This document shows, piece after piece, positions 346 to 40,881 of a DNA stretch of 40,972 nt. The translations under genes and the position numbers were made by a program. Numbering within the stretch: the first letter of the stretch is position 1; every line of letters begins with the position of its first letter. A model generated the notes under the pieces. It ran no database searches. It had not been told where the DNA came from and saw only the letters and a list, made by a program, of their open reading frames with translations. Origin of the DNA: a virus. The DNA is taken from IMG/VR virus record IMGVR_UViG_3300020180_000004, positions 1 to 40,972 of that record; one strand, 5' to 3'.

Positions 346-551
346 TGCTCTGTCTCGTGCGGCTCTAAACCATCAATTTTCTTGCCAATAGCTTCGTCCG
401 CTAGCAGGTTCATTTCTTCGTAAAGACTTGCGAAAAAATAAAGTCTTTCCAGGGGAGACAAATCATGCTTTTCAATCGATGCAATCAAGTCTCCGAAAAC
501 ACTTACAAACTTCGGCTCAGAAATTTCTGTTACTACTTTTGTTTTTTTCAC
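342..551 (-). CDS. Small acidic protein of unknown function
   Basis: This gene encodes 69 aa from a GTG start at 551. A longer reading in the same frame (to 593) is possible, but GTG at 551 overlaps the TGA of the 47-aa membrane protein gene just upstream as GTGA, the pattern seen between its neighbours, so I prefer the shorter form. The product is predicted mostly helical, with no membrane segment and no Cys. Its end overlaps the next gene (16-345) as ATGA. No family recognised. Confidence 0.6.
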   Translation of the reverse strand: MKKTKVVTEISEPKFVSVFGDLIASIEKHDLSPLERLYFFASLYEEMNLLADEAIGKKIDGLEPHETEQ

Positions 552-691
552 GTCAACCCGACTACCAAACAAATAGCAGCTCCGATAAAGCAAAGTATCG
601 CTAGTACCTTCAGCCGATTCACTTCGTCTTGACGCTTAATTCTCTCTCTATCTATATCCATAATTTTAGTTACCTCGTCTTGATCTAACAT
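548..691 (-). CDS. 47-aa single-helix membrane microprotein
   Basis: An ATG-started frame of 47 codons. The first 28 residues are charged and predicted helical (rich in Asp, Glu, Lys, Arg). Residues of about 29-46 form one hydrophobic helix running to the C-terminus. This is the layout of a small C-tail-anchored membrane protein. It starts three bases after the 695-1030 gene ends and its TGA overlaps the next GTG. Function unknown; small phage membrane proteins of this kind can act in lysis timing or host membrane interference, but nothing here decides that. Confidence 0.6.
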   Translation of the reverse strand: MLDQDEVTKIMDIDRERIKRQDEVNRLKVLAILCFIGAAICLVVGLT

Positions 692-694
692 TTT

Positions 695-1030
695 CTATTT
701 CTCCATCTCTTTAATCTTTGCGAGCGCCACCCTTGCGGCCAAGCCTCCAACGTTTTTATCGTCTGTACGCTCGTCAAGCTTGAAATCGCCACTCCCTAAA
801 TCACTCTTATCAATAATACCGTAGAGGTAGGCACTCACGACTGGAAAGCCATGCTGCCAATTATCTTGGCTTGCGTAAAACTCCAAAGCCTTGATCGCTA
901 TATCAAGCTGTTTTTGAAACGCTCTCTCTTTACTTTTGGTTGGCGCGTGTGACCACGTCACAACTACATTTAATTTATTCGAGTTAACAAGCTCCTGCAT
1001 TGGCAGGGTTATAGTTGTGCTTTTTTCCAT
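695..1030 (-). CDS. Unknown 111-aa protein
   Basis: The start chosen is ATG at 1030, preceded by purine-rich GGAGAAATAGGA. An in-frame upstream extension to 1138 would run into the coding region of the preceding gene and lacks a better ribosome site. The product has a beta-looking first half (residues 5-30) followed by a helix rich in Lys and Ala, a central segment of about residues 55-72 with several aromatics, and a Lys/Glu-rich C-terminal helix. It is soluble, with no signal. I do not recognise the family. It sits inside the coupled leftward chain. Confidence 0.7.
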   Translation of the reverse strand: MEKSTTITLPMQELVNSNKLNVVVTWSHAPTKSKERAFQKQLDIAIKALEFYASQDNWQHGFPVVSAYLYGIIDKSDLGSGDFKLDERTDDKNVGGLAARVALAKIKEMEK

Positions 1031-1034
1031 ATTC

Positions 1035-1292
1035 CTATTTCTCCACTGAGTTAAGTTTCTCCACATACTTATTAACTTTTTCTCTAGAGCCCCAAGAATA
1101 ATGCGGAAGCTTGACGTATATGTATTGAACAATTTCAAACAGGCTTGCTCTATTGTAAGAATCAGCAGCGCCCAAAGCTCCGCATAAATTGTTTTCTAAG
1201 ACCGCGCTTAAAAAACTTCCTGGCATAATTCCCTGCTTTACATAAATCTCTAAAGACTCCTTCACGCTGTCACTAACCTTATTATGTTCCAT
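1035..1292 (-). CDS. Unknown 85-aa protein
   Basis: ATG at 1292 follows the ribosome site AGGAGAAATAAA and lies 1 base from the end of the preceding gene. A longer in-frame reading to 1592 overlaps that gene almost fully and is rejected. The 85-aa product is predicted helical and soluble; the stretch at residues 14-45 resembles a short compact helical domain. No recognised motif. It is one link in the leftward chain of small genes. Confidence 0.7.
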   Translation of the reverse strand: MEHNKVSDSVKESLEIYVKQGIMPGSFLSAVLENNLCGALGAADSYNRASLFEIVQYIYVKLPHYSWGSREKVNKYVEKLNSVEK

Positions 1293-1293
1293 T

Positions 1294-1761
1294 TTATTTC
1301 TCCTCTGGGTTAAATCGAACCAATGGTCCCTTACTGTAATTAGCGTCACTGTCGTCAAGACCGCAATCACCACGCGTAGAATGCTTATCACAAAATATTC
1401 TATAAGCGCTTGATGCAGATTCCGATTTGTGCCCGTCCCTAGAATAATCAAATTTCTTTTTAGCCAGAACCGTAGCGACCTGGTCGCAACCCTCTTGGTC
1501 ACAAATATCGCCCTCTCCTGCAAAAAAACCCGCACCATTGTCGCAAGCCTCGATGTGACGGGCACCACATAAATACGCAGCGTATGCAACACTCCCTGCG
1601 TACGAGGTCGTTACCAACTTCCCCTTGCGATAGAAATTAATAACAGCACCTATCCGCCACTCGGAACCAGATGACTCGCTATCTTTCCAGCGCGGTTGTG
1701 TCTCGATAATGATTTTATCAAATGCTTGCGCATCTGGTTTTAAATCTCTTCTGTCTTTCAC
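1294..1761 (-). CDS. Cys-rich unknown protein, possible metal-binding
   Basis: GTG at 1761 is chosen because GGAG lies eight bases upstream and the preceding microprotein gene stops two bases earlier; a longer frame to 1800 lacks such a site. The 155-aa product has seven or so cysteines, several in the second half together with His residues (a CDQEGCD segment and a CDKH segment), which could form one or two zinc sites. The first half is beta-rich. I know no family that matches. It may be a small zinc-binding protein; this is inference from residue spacing only. Confidence 0.7.
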   Translation of the reverse strand: MKDRRDLKPDAQAFDKIIIETQPRWKDSESSGSEWRIGAVINFYRKGKLVTTSYAGSVAYAAYLCGARHIEACDNGAGFFAGEGDICDQEGCDQVATVLAKKKFDYSRDGHKSESASSAYRIFCDKHSTRGDCGLDDSDANYSKGPLVRFNPEEK

Positions 1762-1763
1762 AT

Positions 1764-1871
1764 TTATTTCTCCATTTCTTTTAAAAACTCTCTCAACCAA
1801 CTTATACCAGACGCAAACAACACAACGGTTACCGCTATCGCTACACCTGCAATTTTTAAAGTCTCATTCAC
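1764..1871 (-). CDS. 35-aa membrane microprotein with strong ribosome site
   Basis: A GTG-started frame of 35 codons preceded by AGGAGGTAAA, the strongest Shine-Dalgarno site in this block. Residues of about 5-24 form a single hydrophobic helix, followed by a short amphipathic tail with alternating charges. The GTG overlaps the TGA of the gene before it (1868-2032) as GTGA, and the stop lies two bases before the next GTG start. The strong site and overlaps make it likely to be real despite its size. Function unknown. Confidence 0.65.
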   Translation of the reverse strand: MNETLKIAGVAIAVTVVLFASGISWLREFLKEMEK

Positions 1872-2032
1872 TTTACCTCCTCTACTTTTATCCAAATAAT
1901 ATTTCCGCGCATAATTCTGTCCATGTATTTAGTGGCCTCGTACTTCGCATTATCTTTGTCACTTGCGTACAAAATAATTGTCGTGACCTTGCTCGTAGAA
2001 TTTTTCTGGAACTCTAATCTAAATCTCTTCAC
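1868..2032 (-). CDS. 54-aa unknown protein
   Basis: A GTG-started frame of 54 codons. The GTG overlaps the stop of the 24-aa frame upstream (GTGA), and its own TGA overlaps the next GTG. The product has a beta-alpha-beta appearance: a strand near residues 16-23, an amphipathic helix at about 26-40 and a strand at 44-50, the general outline of many small phage proteins that annotate residue-substitution or single-domain folds. No motif recognised. The same DNA also carries the strong ribosome site of the following gene at its 3' end. Confidence 0.6.
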   Translation of the reverse strand: MKRFRLEFQKNSTSKVTTIILYASDKDNAKYEATKYMDRIMRGNIIWIKVEEVK

Positions 2033-2103
2033 CAAACTAATCCCATCATAAATAAAAGAAAAAGAAGGACTACTACAACCCTTGCGAACTCGCCAACACT
2101 CAC
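2029..2103 (-). CDS. 24-aa hydrophobic peptide
   Basis: A GTG-started frame of 24 codons, nearly all hydrophobic after residue 7, so it would be a single membrane helix with a very short N-terminal segment. Its GTG overlaps the TGA of the zinc-ribbon gene upstream and its TGA overlaps the GTG of the 54-aa gene. Because it is so short, the case rests on the stop-start overlaps at both ends; it may only serve to carry ribosomes from one gene to the next. Confidence 0.4.
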   Translation of the reverse strand: MSVGEFARVVVVLLFLLFMMGLVW

Positions 2104-2324
2104 TTCCTACTTCCCTTGCTAAAATATTTCTTCTGCCCGTGCTTCCTACCCACCACTAACCACAAAAGGGCTGCGTTACAATCTGGGCAAAAAGACTCCT
2201 TCCTTCTCACATGCGGTGCCTGAATAAATTTAACAACACCACGGTCCTTGTCGTAACACTTTGTCTTAATGTCCGACCTACATGTGAACGAATCACATAA
2301 TCCTATCTGGTCCCCTGTCTCCAC
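2100..2324 (-). CDS. Small zinc-ribbon-like protein
   Basis: GTG at 2324 is preceded by AGGGGGGAAGC. The 74-aa product carries Cys at residues 10, 15, 23, 46 and 49, with a typical CPDC knuckle at 46-49 and a basic C-terminus (GRKHGQKK). This looks like a small zinc ribbon able to bind nucleic acid or a protein partner. It follows the membrane coiled-coil gene and leads into the chain of microproteins through a GTGA overlap. No specific family recognised. Confidence 0.65.
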   Translation of the reverse strand: METGDQIGLCDSFTCRSDIKTKCYDKDRGVVKFIQAPHVRRKESFCPDCNAALLWLVVGRKHGQKKYFSKGSRK

Positions 2325-5824: not shown

Positions 5825-6020
5825 TGGTGGGGTGCGTTGGGAATTTGTGGGGGTTGTCGCGGTGTGGTGTGAAAATTGGGGGTTTTTTGGCTTGGTGGAC
5901 GGGTAAAAGGGGAAAGTGTCCAGGATGTTTTGGAGGTATGTGAACATCTGTCACCTATTGAAATCATTGAGGAATTATGCTTGGTGGACAGGTGTACATA
6001 TACTTTTCTTTAAATAAAAA

Positions 6021-6420: not shown

Positions 6421-6496
6421 ATCTTAATTACGTATGGGAAATTTGAGTATAGTAATCTAAGGGTACTATAAGACGGCCAGCCTCCAGCTTTGGAAA

Positions 6497-6600
6497 TGTT
6501 GTCTCAAAACGAGACACTTCAATGTTGTCTCAAAACGAGACACTTCAATGTTGTCTCAAAACGAGACACTTCAATGTTGTCTCAAAATGAGACACTTCAG
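6497..6600. repeat. Four tandem 26-bp palindromic repeats
   Basis: Four copies at an exact 26-bp spacing (GTCTC starts at 6501, 6527, 6553 and 6579). Each holds TGTCTC-AAAAC-GAGACA, a perfect 6-bp inverted repeat around 5 bases. In the fourth copy the spacer is AAAAT, which extends the arms to 7 bp. The linker ACTTCAATGT is conserved too. The array ends two bases before the stop of the leftward lipoprotein gene. Spacing of about 2.5 helical turns fits an array of protein-binding sites (iterons or operators). As RNA it would form four equal hairpins at the end of the leftward transcript. There are no unique spacers, so it is not a CRISPR. Confidence 0.85.
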
Positions 6601-6602
6601 TG

Positions 6603-6878
6603 TTACCAACACCGAACATCAGTCTTCACAAATCGACCGTATACGTCAAAGATAGGCTCTGAAGTACAGACATGGCCCACAAGATCGTATTGTGTGGGCA
6701 TTCCCAGACTTGCGCCGCTTGCATCTTCAAGCCCCTTTAGAGCGCCTCCTCTTAAAGTCTCCGTTAACGCCGGTGGAAGTTGAAAACCCTGTTTGTGGAC
6801 CGTTTTAGAGCTGCAAGCGCCCAACAGTAGGACTAAGCTTAGCACGGGCACTAGTTTGAAACATTTTGAAAATCTCAT
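6603..6878 (-). CDS. Small lipoprotein
   Basis: A 91-aa protein with a type II signal sequence: basic start (MRFSK), hydrophobic core of about residues 8-19 and lipobox LLGAC with Cys22. After processing about 70 residues would face the periplasm; two more cysteines (near 73 and 90) could form a disulfide. AAGGAG lies 5 bases before the ATG. It is the last gene of the leftward cassette. Small phage lipoproteins can block superinfection (as Llp of T5 does) or act as outer-membrane spanins. There is no partner gene typical of spanins beside it, so exclusion is the more attractive guess, but it is only a guess. Confidence 0.8.
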   Translation of the reverse strand: MRFSKCFKLVPVLSLVLLLGACSSKTVHKQGFQLPPALTETLRGGALKGLEDASGASLGMPTQYDLVGHVCTSEPIFDVYGRFVKTDVRCW

Positions 6879-9762: not shown

Positions 9763-10169
9763 GCTTTAGTTATATTTTGTTATATTTTGTATCAAAATGT
9801 ATCTAAGTGTTCTTATCCTTATATATGAGGGAAGTCAGTACGTTTCGCGGCCGCGCTCGCAAGTATACAAATACGCCCTCACGCGAAGCGCCCTCGAGGA
9901 ATACTATAACTTATAGATACAAATGTTATATACTTAAGGTCTTGTTATGCTTGGTCTATTTGTTTCGGTGTCTCAATTCGCTGCATTTTTCCGTGTCAAA
10001 TTGGCCCTATTTTAAGGGGAGGGTAGGGTCTCGAGCGGTGAACGAGTGCGAAGCATGGTCACGCGTAAATTTTTTTCCAATTTATTTTTTTTTTTAATTC
10101 CGACACCGCGCCATGTGCTATAACAAACGAAGAAACAAAACAATGGGGGCATTGAAGGAGACCAGTTCT
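9763..10169. other. Intergenic region between leftward cassette and recombinase
   Basis: I see no convincing gene in this stretch. It has an AT-rich left side with a 10-bp direct repeat (GTTATATTTT, at about 9769-9790), a GC-rich patch with a NotI site (GCGGCCGC), and a T-rich tract just before the late genes. A rightward extended -10 box, TGCTATAAC at 10116-10124, could start the transcript that carries the recombinase and packaging genes, but no -35 box accompanies it. An attachment site may also lie here, next to the recombinase gene; nothing marks it directly. Confidence 0.4.
10116..10124 (+). promoter_or_regulatory. Possible extended -10 promoter
   Basis: TGC followed by TATAAC gives an extended -10 element with five of six consensus bases. 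Start of transcription would fall near 10131, about 40 bases before the recombinase start codon. There is no recognisable -35 box at the usual distance. The upstream in-frame ATG at 10113 lies inside this element and would then be untranscribed. Confidence 0.3.
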
Positions 10170-10868
10170 ATGTCCCAGTTACCAATAACACACCCACCAA
10201 TAACACACCCACCAATAACACACCCACCAATCACACGTCCAATCACACGTCCAATCACACGTCCAATCACACGTCCAACCACACGTCCAATCCCACAGTC
10301 ACCCACTCCAACAAAGCGACGGGCTCGTTCTGAGTACGAGTTAACAGACCACAAGTATTTAGAGGTCGAGGAGCAGGCTAGATTTTTGGAGACTTTAAAG
10401 AAGTTCGAGTTCACATCTCCACGAGACACGACGTTATTGTGGTTGGCGTTGGCCACTGGTGCGAGGGCGAGTGAGTTGTTGAATATAAAGTCCTCTGACG
10501 TATTTGGTGGGAGGGTAAAGAAGGTTTTCATAAGGGGGTTAAAATCTTCCAGGGACCGTGCGATGCCGATACCTGATTGGTTGTATAGAAAGGTGCTTGG
10601 GTTGATTCCGTGTTCTTTGAGTGGTCGTGTATTCCCAATAAGTTATATAAGATTTTACCAGATTTGGTGTGACTATCGTCCGGTGAAAAAGAAGTTACAT
10701 AGTTTGCGTCATACGTATGCGGTGAATGTTTACCGTGGTACGAGGTCACTTTTTATTTTGCAGACAGGTCTTGGTCATCGGAGTTTATCGAACACATTAA
10801 TTTACGCGAGGTACGAGGCTGCGCAGGAGGATTTGAATGCGGCGATGAGGGCTTTAAAGTTGAGATAG
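10170..10868 (+). CDS. Tyrosine recombinase (integrase-like) with repeat N-terminus
   Basis: A 232-aa protein. Residues of about 65-232 form a tyrosine recombinase catalytic domain: Arg99 (TGARASEL), Lys125, His177 and Arg180 (HSLRHTYA), His203 (LGHRS) and nucleophile Tyr212. In place of the usual core-binding domain, residues 5-43 are Pro-Ile-Thr-His/Arg repeats followed by a basic patch. ATG 10170 is chosen for its GAAGGAG site nine bases upstream; in-frame ATGs at 10113 and 10143 have none. It could integrate the phage or resolve genome multimers. Loss of the N-terminal domain should weaken DNA clamping, so it may need a partner. It shares its G-rich coding style with the terminase genes that follow. 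Confidence 0.85.
   Translation: MSQLPITHPPITHPPITHPPITRPITRPITRPITRPTTRPIPQSPTPTKRRARSEYELTDHKYLEVEEQARFLETLKKFEFTSPRDTTLLWLALATGARASELLNIKSSDVFGGRVKKVFIRGLKSSRDRAMPIPDWLYRKVLGLIPCSLSGRVFPISYIRFYQIWCDYRPVKKKLHSLRHTYAVNVYRGTRSLFILQTGLGHRSLSNTLIYARYEAAQEDLNAAMRALKLR
10182..10298 (+). repeat. In-frame tandem repeats in recombinase gene
   Basis: Three exact 15-bp units (CCAATAACACACCCA) are followed by six 12-bp units, four of them exact (CCAATCACACGT) and two diverged. Every unit is a multiple of three, so the frame is kept and the protein gains PITHP and PITR repeats. The two unit types share the start CCAAT and an ACAC core, so one probably arose from the other. Such arrays change length easily. 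Confidence 0.9.
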
Positions 10869-24138: not shown

Positions 24139-24495
24139 ATGGGCGCTGAAGTGTGGATTGCGGCAATTGGTTTAGGTACGACGTTAATTGGCACCGCTAA
24201 ATATATGGTAACTAAGTTAGATGACTCTAACAAGGAAGCCATATCTGCACACAAGGCACACCTTCAAACTTTTAAGGAAGAGATTACAAAAGTTAGAGAA
24301 GAGTACTACGACACGAAAATTAGTAATGAGTCTTTAAAGGCGATGGTGTTGACGATGCAGAAGAATTTTTCTGATATGAACACTACCCTAAAAATGTTCG
24401 TAGAGTTAACTAGAGGCTCGATGCTTGAGAATGAGAAAAGATTCGACAAACTCCACGAGGAGTTTGGGAAAGTTTTAATAAGGTTTAAGAAATGA
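24139..24495 (+). CDS. Membrane protein of lysis cluster, holin or spanin candidate
   Basis: A 118-aa protein with one N-terminal hydrophobic helix (about residues 5-24) followed by a charged helical region likely to form a coiled coil. This topology fits an inner-membrane spanin, and some single-helix holins are similar. It overlaps the endolysin gene by 4 bases (ATGA), which ties it to lysis. No second membrane helix, so it is not a classical two- or three-helix holin. Confidence 0.6.
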   Translation: MGAEVWIAAIGLGTTLIGTAKYMVTKLDDSNKEAISAHKAHLQTFKEEITKVREEYYDTKISNESLKAMVLTMQKNFSDMNTTLKMFVELTRGSMLENEKRFDKLHEEFGKVLIRFKK

Positions 24496-24920
24496 GCTTT
24501 TTTAAAACACCTGAAGTTGAGAGACGAGTACAGTTCATGTGCATAGAGGCTAAGAACATCATGGGCGCTTGTATAAACTTTGTAATTGATGCGGGCATGG
24601 TGCCTGTCATCACGGAGACAGTGACGACTAGAGGAGAGGACGAAAAGCTGCATAGAACTTCTGCGACACATAGGGAAGGAAGAGCTTTTGATTTAAGGTG
24701 CAAGGATTGGCCAACGGAAGTGAAGTTAGATTTTTTATCTTTTATAGAAGATCAGTACGGTTCTTACGGGGCGCTCTCGGCGGACGGATATCCAAAGATT
24801 GTTCACCACCATGGCGAAGGGGACAGCGAGCACATGCACGTTCAGGTAAATAAGAAATATTATAATTTAGCAAGATTATCAGGATTTAAACTAGAAAAAA
24901 GGGGAATAGAAAATGTCTGA
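24492..24920 (+). CDS. M15-family peptidase endolysin
   Basis: A 142-aa enzyme with the full signature of M15 peptidases: THREGRAFD gives the zinc ligands His60 and Asp67, and EHMH gives the catalytic Glu113 and the zinc ligand His116. These enzymes cut peptide cross-links of the cell wall (L-Ala-D-Glu or D-Ala-D-Ala type bonds). There is no cell-wall binding domain and no signal peptide, as is usual for endolysins against Gram-negative hosts that leave the cytoplasm through a holin. Confidence 0.88.
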   Translation: MSFFKTPEVERRVQFMCIEAKNIMGACINFVIDAGMVPVITETVTTRGEDEKLHRTSATHREGRAFDLRCKDWPTEVKLDFLSFIEDQYGSYGALSADGYPKIVHHHGEGDSEHMHVQVNKKYYNLARLSGFKLEKRGIENV

Positions 24921-25206
24921 AGAAATTCAAGGGACGAAAGAAACAAAGGAACTTTTAATAGCACTTTTAAAGGTGACACCCATTTTACTTAAACAATTTA
25001 AGGACGGCGCACAGGTACAAGACGCCACTGAGTTATACGAGAAGATTGTAGGGAACGCAGAGATGAAAGCGGTTATTTTACAAGCATATGAGGGTTACAA
25101 GTTAGTGCCTGGGGAACTAAAAGATTTATCTGTTAAAGAGGGAATCTCTTTGGCCAGCGAATTGTTGCCTGAATTATTTAAGGTAATTGATGAGCTTAAG
25201 AAATAA
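24913..25206 (+). CDS. Helical protein next to endolysin
   Basis: A 97-aa, all-helical protein with several Leu-rich amphipathic segments and Lys/Glu at regular spacing. No membrane helix or signal. It overlaps the endolysin gene by 8 bases and the next small gene by one base (TAATG). The place suggests a role in lysis control, such as an antiholin-like factor, but no motif supports this. Confidence 0.6.
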   Translation: MSEEIQGTKETKELLIALLKVTPILLKQFKDGAQVQDATELYEKIVGNAEMKAVILQAYEGYKLVPGELKDLSVKEGISLASELLPELFKVIDELKK

Positions 25207-25385
25207 TGGGCGCACTAAAGTCGATTTATAATATTATGCTGGCTCTCCCGGAGATTCTTAAAGTTGTAGGAAGTATTATCCAGTACTACAAAATGAAGGA
25301 CAAGGAAGCTAAGCTAAAAAAGGCGATAGAGGAAGATGAGAAGAACAAAGTTACTTCTAATATTGAGCGCATTATTAACAAGTAG
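25206..25385 (+). CDS. 59-aa membrane-associated protein, spanin-like partner
   Basis: A frame of 59 codons starting with a TAATG overlap. Residues of about 6-28 are largely hydrophobic and could insert in or lie on the membrane; the remainder is a highly charged helix. The lipoprotein gene that follows starts inside this gene in another frame, the architecture of overlapping Rz/Rz1 pairs. At 59 aa it is short for an inner-membrane spanin, so the assignment is open; the 24139-24495 product is an alternative partner for the lipoprotein. Confidence 0.55.
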   Translation: MGALKSIYNIMLALPEILKVVGSIIQYYKMKDKEAKLKKAIEEDEKNKVTSNIERIINK

Positions 25386-25557
25386 TTGTGCTTTAAAGGA
25401 GCCTAAGGACGTAAAAATCTATCAGGCCTCTTTAGAGGAAGCAGCTCTTGTTAGATATCAAGAGGAAGAGTTTATTTCTTTTGGGGACCCTGCGATAGAT
25501 AATTACATGTGTCTTTCAAAAGAGGATTTAATTAAGGTTTTAAGGAATTTAAAGTAG
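25336..25557 (+). CDS. Small lipoprotein, candidate outer-membrane spanin
   Basis: A 73-aa protein with a basic start (MRRTK), hydrophobic core and lipobox LTSSC, Cys18 being the lipidation site. The first 50 bases overlap the preceding 59-aa gene in another frame. The mature part (about 55 aa) is acidic and contains a helix with Glu/Ala repeats. In a lysis cluster this fits an outer-membrane spanin that helps break the outer membrane after the wall is cut. Confidence 0.65.
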   Translation: MRRTKLLLILSALLTSSCALKEPKDVKIYQASLEEAALVRYQEEEFISFGDPAIDNYMCLSKEDLIKVLRNLK

Positions 25558-40297: not shown

Positions 40298-40513
40298 CTA
40301 GGCCTCGTCGCCCTGCATGGGTACGTCTTTGCGCCTTTTTATTTCCGTTAGCGCAAGCCCTAACTTCTCTGCCAAAACAGCATGGTGCGCCTCTAATATT
40401 TTATCGACTATTAAGCTTGCTTGATTTGATTCAAATGTTCCGCTTGGCGTTTCGCTCCAGCACATCGATGCTTCACCGATCGCTTCGCCTACTATTGTTT
40501 TAAACTCTTTCAT
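40298..40513 (-). CDS. Unknown 71-aa protein
   Basis: A 71-aa protein predicted helical, with a weakly polar N-terminal half and a Lys/Arg-rich end (IKRRKD). Its ATG overlaps the stop of the gene upstream (40510-40881) as ATGA. No motif recognised. Confidence 0.65.
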   Translation of the reverse strand: MKEFKTIVGEAIGEASMCWSETPSGTFESNQASLIVDKILEAHHAVLAEKLGLALTEIKRRKDVPMQGDEA

Positions 40514-40881
40514 AATTCACCTTCTGCTTTAATTAACATTATCAATGCATCTACTTGATTCTCTAGTTCCTGTGTTTTCGATGCGTATAATGTGGCTGCG
40601 TATGTGGCTACCTCTGAGGCTGCACGCAATGAGGATGCGTCTGAGGATGCGTCTGAGGATGCATATGCAGAAAATGCGCAATCAATCGCGAACGCTTCGA
40701 CTAAAAATTTAGGCATAACTCGAATGGTAACCCAGATTTTATCTATTGCGCTGATCTTTTCTAGCTCTAAAAACTCTAAAATATCCCCATCAAAATCTTT
40801 GTAATTTTCTCTCCAAATAACAAGCCGAGATACGCATGGCTTTAATGCTTCTATTATTTCCGTGTTGATTCTGATTTTCAT
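40510..40881 (-). CDS. Unknown protein with Ala/Ser/Asp repeats
   Basis: A 123-aa protein whose start lies in the terminal repeat (40881 equals 19). Residues of about 72-98 are Ala/Ser/Asp-rich repeats (YASSDASSDASSLRAAS), the kind of low-complexity helical repeat found in many phage early proteins. The first 60 residues and the last 20 (a Leu-rich helix) look like folded parts. Coupled by ATGA overlaps to both neighbours. Function unknown. Confidence 0.7.
   Translation of the reverse strand: MKIRINTEIIEALKPCVSRLVIWRENYKDFDGDILEFLELEKISAIDKIWVTIRVMPKFLVEAFAIDCAFSAYASSDASSDASSLRAASEVATYAATLYASKTQELENQVDALIMLIKAEGEL
40631..40662 (-). repeat. 12-bp tandem repeat in Ala/Ser/Asp gene
   Basis: GAGGATGCGTCT occurs twice and then in part (GAGGATGC) on the top strand, encoding the Ala-Ser-Ser-Asp repeats of the leftward protein. 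Length is a multiple of three, so slippage would add or remove four residues without breaking the frame. Confidence 0.8.

Follow-up and report, generated by a model that had tools for sequence, protein, structure and literature searches.

Between positions 2324 and 548 of a 40,972-base virus record (the window, analysed here at its full length), eight short open reading frames follow one another on the minus strand almost without interruption, and the question they raise is whether such a run of tiny frames consists of genes at all and, if it does, whether these make up a conserved module of their own or a passing set of accessory genes. Our analysis points to the latter. With a probability of about two in three, we read the eight genes as the leading section of an uncultured phage's leftward early/replication operon. 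In related phages, the segment that they occupy holds other small genes. In the window, several gene junctions of this segment carry a short repeated sequence.

An operon of tightly packed small genes

The window carries an exact 110-base repeat at both ends and comes from an IMG/VR virus record, which makes it probable that we see a whole phage genome here, 40,862 bp long without the 110-bp end repeat. We found no match among annotated phages for the DNA of its first 8 kb or for its portal protein, no DNA match to the locus in the plasmids searched, no prophage relative in bacterial and archaeal genomes when searching with the capsid, and no Rfam family in the window. The minus-strand operon begins near position 2801, divergent from a plus-strand primase with Toprim and D5 domains, passes through the eight-gene chain, crosses the ends of the record and continues to a helicase of the SNF2 type and a DNA polymerase of family A (PolA). 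Its probable first gene, directly upstream of the eight (Table 1), encodes a 147-aa membrane protein with a single helix and a coiled coil; proteins of a similar plan are found at the corresponding place in three related phages (G001, G006 and G011), with weak sequence similarity to it. A search ahead of the operon revealed no promoter-like site, and the leader RNA does not fold better than its shuffles (z −0.33). The leader between the operon and the primase also contains a perfect 11-bp inverted repeat, TACGGTACTTT (2853–2863 and 2890–2900), which may be an operator. Short repeats are seen as well in some protein sequences of the window, namely near-repeats (ASSDASSDASS) in a 123-aa protein (40510–40881), tandem-like repeats (SQNETLQC) in the translation of 6490–6783 (plus strand), and N-terminal tandem-like repeats (THPPITHPP/TRPITRP) in a phage-integrase-family protein (10113–10868, plus strand).

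Table 1. Genes of the chain and its surroundings, copies of the junction repeat and likely lysis genes in the window. SD, anti-Shine-Dalgarno pairing; KD19, best 19-residue Kyte-Doolittle mean.
Feature	Position	Strand	Remarks
147-aa protein, N-terminal helix and coiled coil	2801–2358	minus	SD −10.7
74-aa zinc-ribbon-like protein, GTG start	2324–2100	minus	SD −10.9 kcal/mol
24-aa single-helix membrane microprotein	2103–2029	minus	GTGA overlap at both ends; KD19 2.54
54-aa soluble protein	2032–1868	minus	GTGA overlap at both ends; codon score 13.2 bits
35-aa microprotein with one helix and, after it, a short charged tail	1871–1764	minus	codon score 9.8; KD19 2.19
GGAGAAATA, copy 1	1765–1773	minus	end of 35-aa gene; SD of 155-aa gene
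155-aa Cys/His-rich phage protein	1761–1294	minus	C-terminal signature RGDCGLDDSD.NY
GGAGAAATA, copy 2	1295–1303	minus	end of 155-aa gene; SD of 85-aa gene
85-aa protein	1292–1035	minus	43% over 61 aa to a homologue in the G011/G026 small-gene array
GGAGAAATA, copy 3	1036–1044	minus	end of 85-aa gene; SD of 111-aa gene
111-aa protein	1030–695	minus	codon score 22.8; AL(E/D)FYA...W stretch, short match in L086
GGAGAAATA, copy 4	696–704	minus	end of 111-aa gene; SD of 47-aa gene
47-aa tail-anchored microprotein	691–548	minus	charged 28-aa N-terminus, C-terminal helix; KD19 2.79
69-aa gene	551–342	minus	GTGA overlap; beyond the eight-gene border
109-aa gene	345–16	minus	ATGA overlap; next gene, across the record ends, at 40881
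Likely lysis gene	24139–24495	plus	helix and coiled coil, weak Rz-like spanin match
Likely lysis gene	24492–24920	plus	motif THREGRAFD...EHMH, resembling M15-type endolysins (by eye); without a match in Pfam
Likely lysis gene	25336–25557	plus	lipoprotein-like

The chain itself is largely as an earlier note, made from the DNA letters alone, had described it. All eight genes are present with the lengths given there (74, 24, 54, 35, 155, 85, 111 and 47 aa), four of them encoding products below 60 aa (24, 35, 47 and 54 aa); four junctions are 4-nt GTGA stop-start overlaps (at 2103, 2032, 1871 and 551), and the others are gaps of 2, 1, 4 and 3 nt, within the 1–4 nt claimed. What did not hold is the border at 548, where the chain does not end: it continues with the 69- and 109-aa genes and, across the ends of the record, with 40881–40510 and 40513–40298. 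Ten genes thus tile the stretch 2324–16 with junctions of −4 to +4 nt, the chain as a whole takes in no fewer than 12 genes of the operon, and the limits of the eight-gene set are arbitrary.

In 3000 dinucleotide shuffles the longest chain comprised six genes, and an eight-gene chain occurred in none. By codon usage, each of the eight frames outscores the other five frames of its own stretch, with scores near zero for three of them (74 aa, −3.6; 24 aa, +1.2; 47 aa, −0.1 bits). Seven of the eight genes are also called, with the same starts, by a home-made gene finder, among them the 47-aa gene despite its low score; only the 24-aa gene is missed. Ribosome-binding sites lie within the terminal parts of the preceding genes, and the AGGAGG site that the earlier note had pointed out before the 35-aa gene shows the strongest anti-SD pairing of the operon (−13.3 kcal/mol, the 2nd percentile for all start-like codons being −8.8 kcal/mol). 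Tiling, codon usage and ribosome-binding sites together establish that the eight-gene chain is not due to chance. The translation predicted for it is well supported by the overlaps, the ribosome-binding sites and codon usage, and for the neighbouring genes also by homologues; we regard it as very probable for the genes of the chain and as quite likely for the 24-aa gene, which is the least certain because the gene finder missed it. Moreover, overlaps or gaps of a few nucleotides, with the SD sequence within the upstream gene, are the layout of a translationally coupled chain. Of 14 overlapping gene pairs from bacteria and archaea that Huber et al. 2019 (PMC6728339) tested, 13 showed strictly coupled translation, and coupling requires overlaps or very short gaps (PMC10666635); by analogy, the genes of the chain are probably translated by stop-start coupling.

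The three single-helix products of the earlier note are likewise found, with best Kyte-Doolittle means over 19 residues of 2.19–2.79 (Table 1). Taking all its frames together, the window contains 495 open reading frames of 20–60 aa; 9% of them attain a value of 1.6 and only three attain 2.2, two of these being the 24- and 47-aa frames. A role of the three peptides in the membrane is plausible. None of the eight proteins has a reliable match in Pfam, PHROGs or NCBIfam, and we regard weak hits such as HdeD or OXA as chance. For the 24-, 35-, 47- and 54-aa proteins no relative was found, including in a search with all four joined as one query, and no genome with DNA homologous to the microgene frames was found. 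The zinc-ribbon-like protein has a positional counterpart of 79 aa in G001 (L007:17912–18151), with which it shares its cysteine pattern and an LLW motif. Relatives of the 155-aa Cys/His-rich protein, probably zinc-binding, occur in three virus contigs that are otherwise dissimilar (66, 48 and 30% identity); the members of this family, which has the C-terminal signature given in Table 1, are encoded at 1294–1761 of the window, L085:6001–6471, L086:3581–4027 and L087:5905–6624, and that of the window has no reliable match in Pfam or PHROGs. Similarity of the 155-aa gene to L085 at the DNA level begins at the start codon. AlphaFold2 models of this protein are poor, with a mean pLDDT of 47 from one sequence and 50 from four.

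Relatives and the turnover of the primase-helicase segment

Relatives of the phage were found among uncultured virus contigs, in 55 loci identified by the portal protein, the portals of related phages being 54–68% identical to that of the window. For G001, identities are 61% in the terminase, 68% in the portal, 70% in the capsid, 47% in PolA and 63% in the helicase; for G003 they are 63% in the helicase and 65% in the portal. These phages keep the primase and the helicase, and one of them also the zinc-ribbon protein. The microgenes are absent, and in their place stand unrelated small genes, which again include single-helix membrane peptides. In G001, genes for products of 113, 72, 101, 62, 27 and 182 aa lie between the zinc-ribbon gene and the helicase. 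Of these products, that of 62 aa shows a lipoprotein-like signal, and that of 27 aa consists of a single helix; the gene for the latter overlaps the following one by four bases and has a strong ribosome-binding site. The interval of G003 holds a helix-turn-helix-repressor-like protein (by eye), genes for 84, 50 and 43 aa, the 50-aa product being a single helix, and a 159-aa gene, and in G005 a leftward array beside a primase-like gene encodes single-helix products of 50, 24 and 34 aa. Content thus turns over between core genes that are kept. Judged by sequence comparison, what recurs is the type of location and the type of product, not the sequences, and this fits an accessory slot with fast turnover, not a conserved module. 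Near the terminase of a relative (L064:5438–5712, minus strand), a gene for a 36-aa single-helix product overlaps a 55-aa lipoprotein-like gene by four bases; this pair is possibly a two-component spanin.

Small, co-directional and tightly packed genes within a replication/early operon are what characterises an early accessory array, and we consider it likely that the eight genes form one, their early timing being suggested by their position and by other phages. The earlier note had instead seen in the membrane microproteins next to the zinc-ribbon protein a possible host-takeover or membrane-modifying module that it could not match to any described one. That the microproteins and the zinc-ribbon protein form one conserved module of this type, acting as a complex, appears improbable to us. 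Their genes are indeed adjacent and coupled by stop-start overlaps, but such overlaps are a default spacing in this phage group and ordinary here, since 108 of 584 junctions in related phages are four-nt overlaps. Furthermore, different genes follow the zinc-ribbon counterpart in G001, and the interval holds other genes in G003, G005, G006 and G011. The proposal is thus not supported by the relatives, where the neighbours are conserved and the microgenes are missing and replaced by others, and what had seemed without parallel is a variable accessory early-gene array of a familiar kind.

Two further readings concern the microproteins alone. A role of the single-helix peptides in lysis, as holin, antiholin or parts of a spanin, would agree with their size and topology, which suit small holins or lysis regulators, but is very unlikely because a likely lysis set lies elsewhere, at 24139–25557, in the rightward late region on the opposite strand (Table 1); the microgenes belong to the replication operon and do not lie next to an endolysin gene. 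It is also conceivable, if rather unlikely, that some of the shortest frames are spacers that happen to stay open. This would apply above all to the 24-aa frame, which has little coding signal (1.2 bits), is omitted by the gene finder and lies in a T-rich stretch that would encode hydrophobic residues anyway. Against this, the frame fills a gap of 68 nt exactly, with four-nt overlaps on both sides, hydrophobicity like that of its product is rare among short open reading frames, and similar helices of 24–27 aa with strong SD sites are encoded in the corresponding arrays of G001 and G005.

A repeated sequence at the gene junctions

The sequence GGAGAAATA occurs four times in the genome, where 0.44 copies are expected, and all four lie at the ends of four consecutive genes (Table 1), where they extend into the stop codon and occupy the position of a ribosome-binding site for the gene that follows. 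The ends of the 155- and 85-aa genes are alike over a longer stretch, 19 nt at 89%. The four proteins that end in it (35, 155, 85 and 111 aa) have no similarity to each other, and in both genes with homologues GGAGAAATA falls in the C-terminal tail, outside the conserved part. A mere preference for certain codons and SD sequences is unlikely as its cause: in a simulation with a simple, crude model, a 9-mer was common to two gene ends in 0.3% of trials and to four ends in 0 of 20,000. A second pair of similar ends, with the sequence AGAGCAATGAA, is seen in the 69- and 109-aa genes (341–351 and 15–25).

Other contigs have junction sequences of their own. L085 carries the repeat AGCATGGGGTG at 5985, 6597 and 7193, two of the three copies being at predicted gene junctions, and in L044 (1885–2814) the repeated sequence AGGAGGTTTGATATG lies between small genes, and AGGAGGTTT is present at five places, four of them with near-identical surroundings at successive gene starts. 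Over 27 sequences, gene pairs that share an upstream 9-mer are neighbours in 29 cases, a count that includes gene duplicates, compared with 14 expected and a maximum of 27 in 1000 simulations. The nearest thing described is the start-associated sequence (SAS) of Cluster K mycobacteriophages, GGGATAGGAGCCC, a 13-bp consensus, which is likewise a short repeat with a ribosome-binding site before non-structural genes of different families (PMC3203893). In contrast to SAS, which has 11–19 copies, mostly in gaps of more than 50 bp, GGAGAAATA has four, each contained in the end of an upstream gene, the gaps there measuring 1–4 nt, and it is GGAGAAATA, not the SAS consensus, that precedes the genes here.

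These observations are suggestive of GGAGAAATA being a phage-specific junction sequence. A bolder idea, which we put forward tentatively and hold to be doubtful, is that each such phage keeps a junction repeat of its own (GGAGAAATA here, AGCATGGGGTG in L085, AGGAGGTTTGATATG in L044) that closes one small gene and holds the ribosome-binding site for its successor. Arriving genes would adopt this repeat, at which accessory genes with stop-start coupling, including those for membrane microproteins, could thus be plugged in. We consider the junction repeat the part of the locus most worth following; if real, it would help explain how arrays take up genes without loss of translation.

Known arrays and a possible mode of action

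Several described systems resemble the locus in part. The exo-xis region in the leftward pL early operon of phage lambda (ea8.5, ea22, orf60a, orf61, orf63 and orf73) is also an array of small early genes whose function is largely unknown, includes a protein with a zinc-finger fold, Ea8.5, and is dispensable under standard laboratory conditions (PMC4195576). However, no sequence relation to it is seen, membrane peptides are not a stated hallmark of the lambda region, and the genes described here sit between primase and helicase. The host-takeover module of SPO1, with 24 genes in the terminal redundancy, some of whose products shut down host functions, similarly groups genes whose products show little resemblance to characterised proteins (PMC10531801); the cluster studied here, in contrast, is not located in a terminal redundancy, is known from sequence alone and is not conserved as a unit in related phages. 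In the T4-like cyanophage S-PM2, an island of 33 ORFans, the 'ORFanage', for which deletion was shown by experiment, also consists of genes without relatives between conserved neighbours that are gained and lost quickly (PMC4503421), although both the phage and the block are far larger than here. The locus is a further example of these familiar, variable accessory early-gene arrays, and not a conserved new module.

As an accessory array, the chain would work as follows. The genes would be carried on one polycistronic early mRNA and translated by termination-reinitiation at the stop-start overlaps, so that the tiny genes would need no separate promoter and would be made in step with their neighbours. 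Going by position and by other phages, the three single-helix peptides would insert into the inner membrane of the host early in infection and may act there as dispensable accessory factors on membrane processes of the host or of incoming phages, for example in superinfection exclusion or in the tuning of a host membrane protein. Such a host-directed action, with superinfection or a host membrane protein as our preferred guess, has about even odds in our view, because of what small phage proteins generally do (reviewed in PMC11323111). The segment between primase and helicase would be a slot with fast turnover, in which relatives retain the frame genes and place other small genes.

Phage membrane microproteins mostly escape annotation. 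The locus and its relatives present a phage group in which such proteins recur in the early operon with differing sequences, and this would let one ask whether it is its place or its sequence that defines the job of a microprotein.
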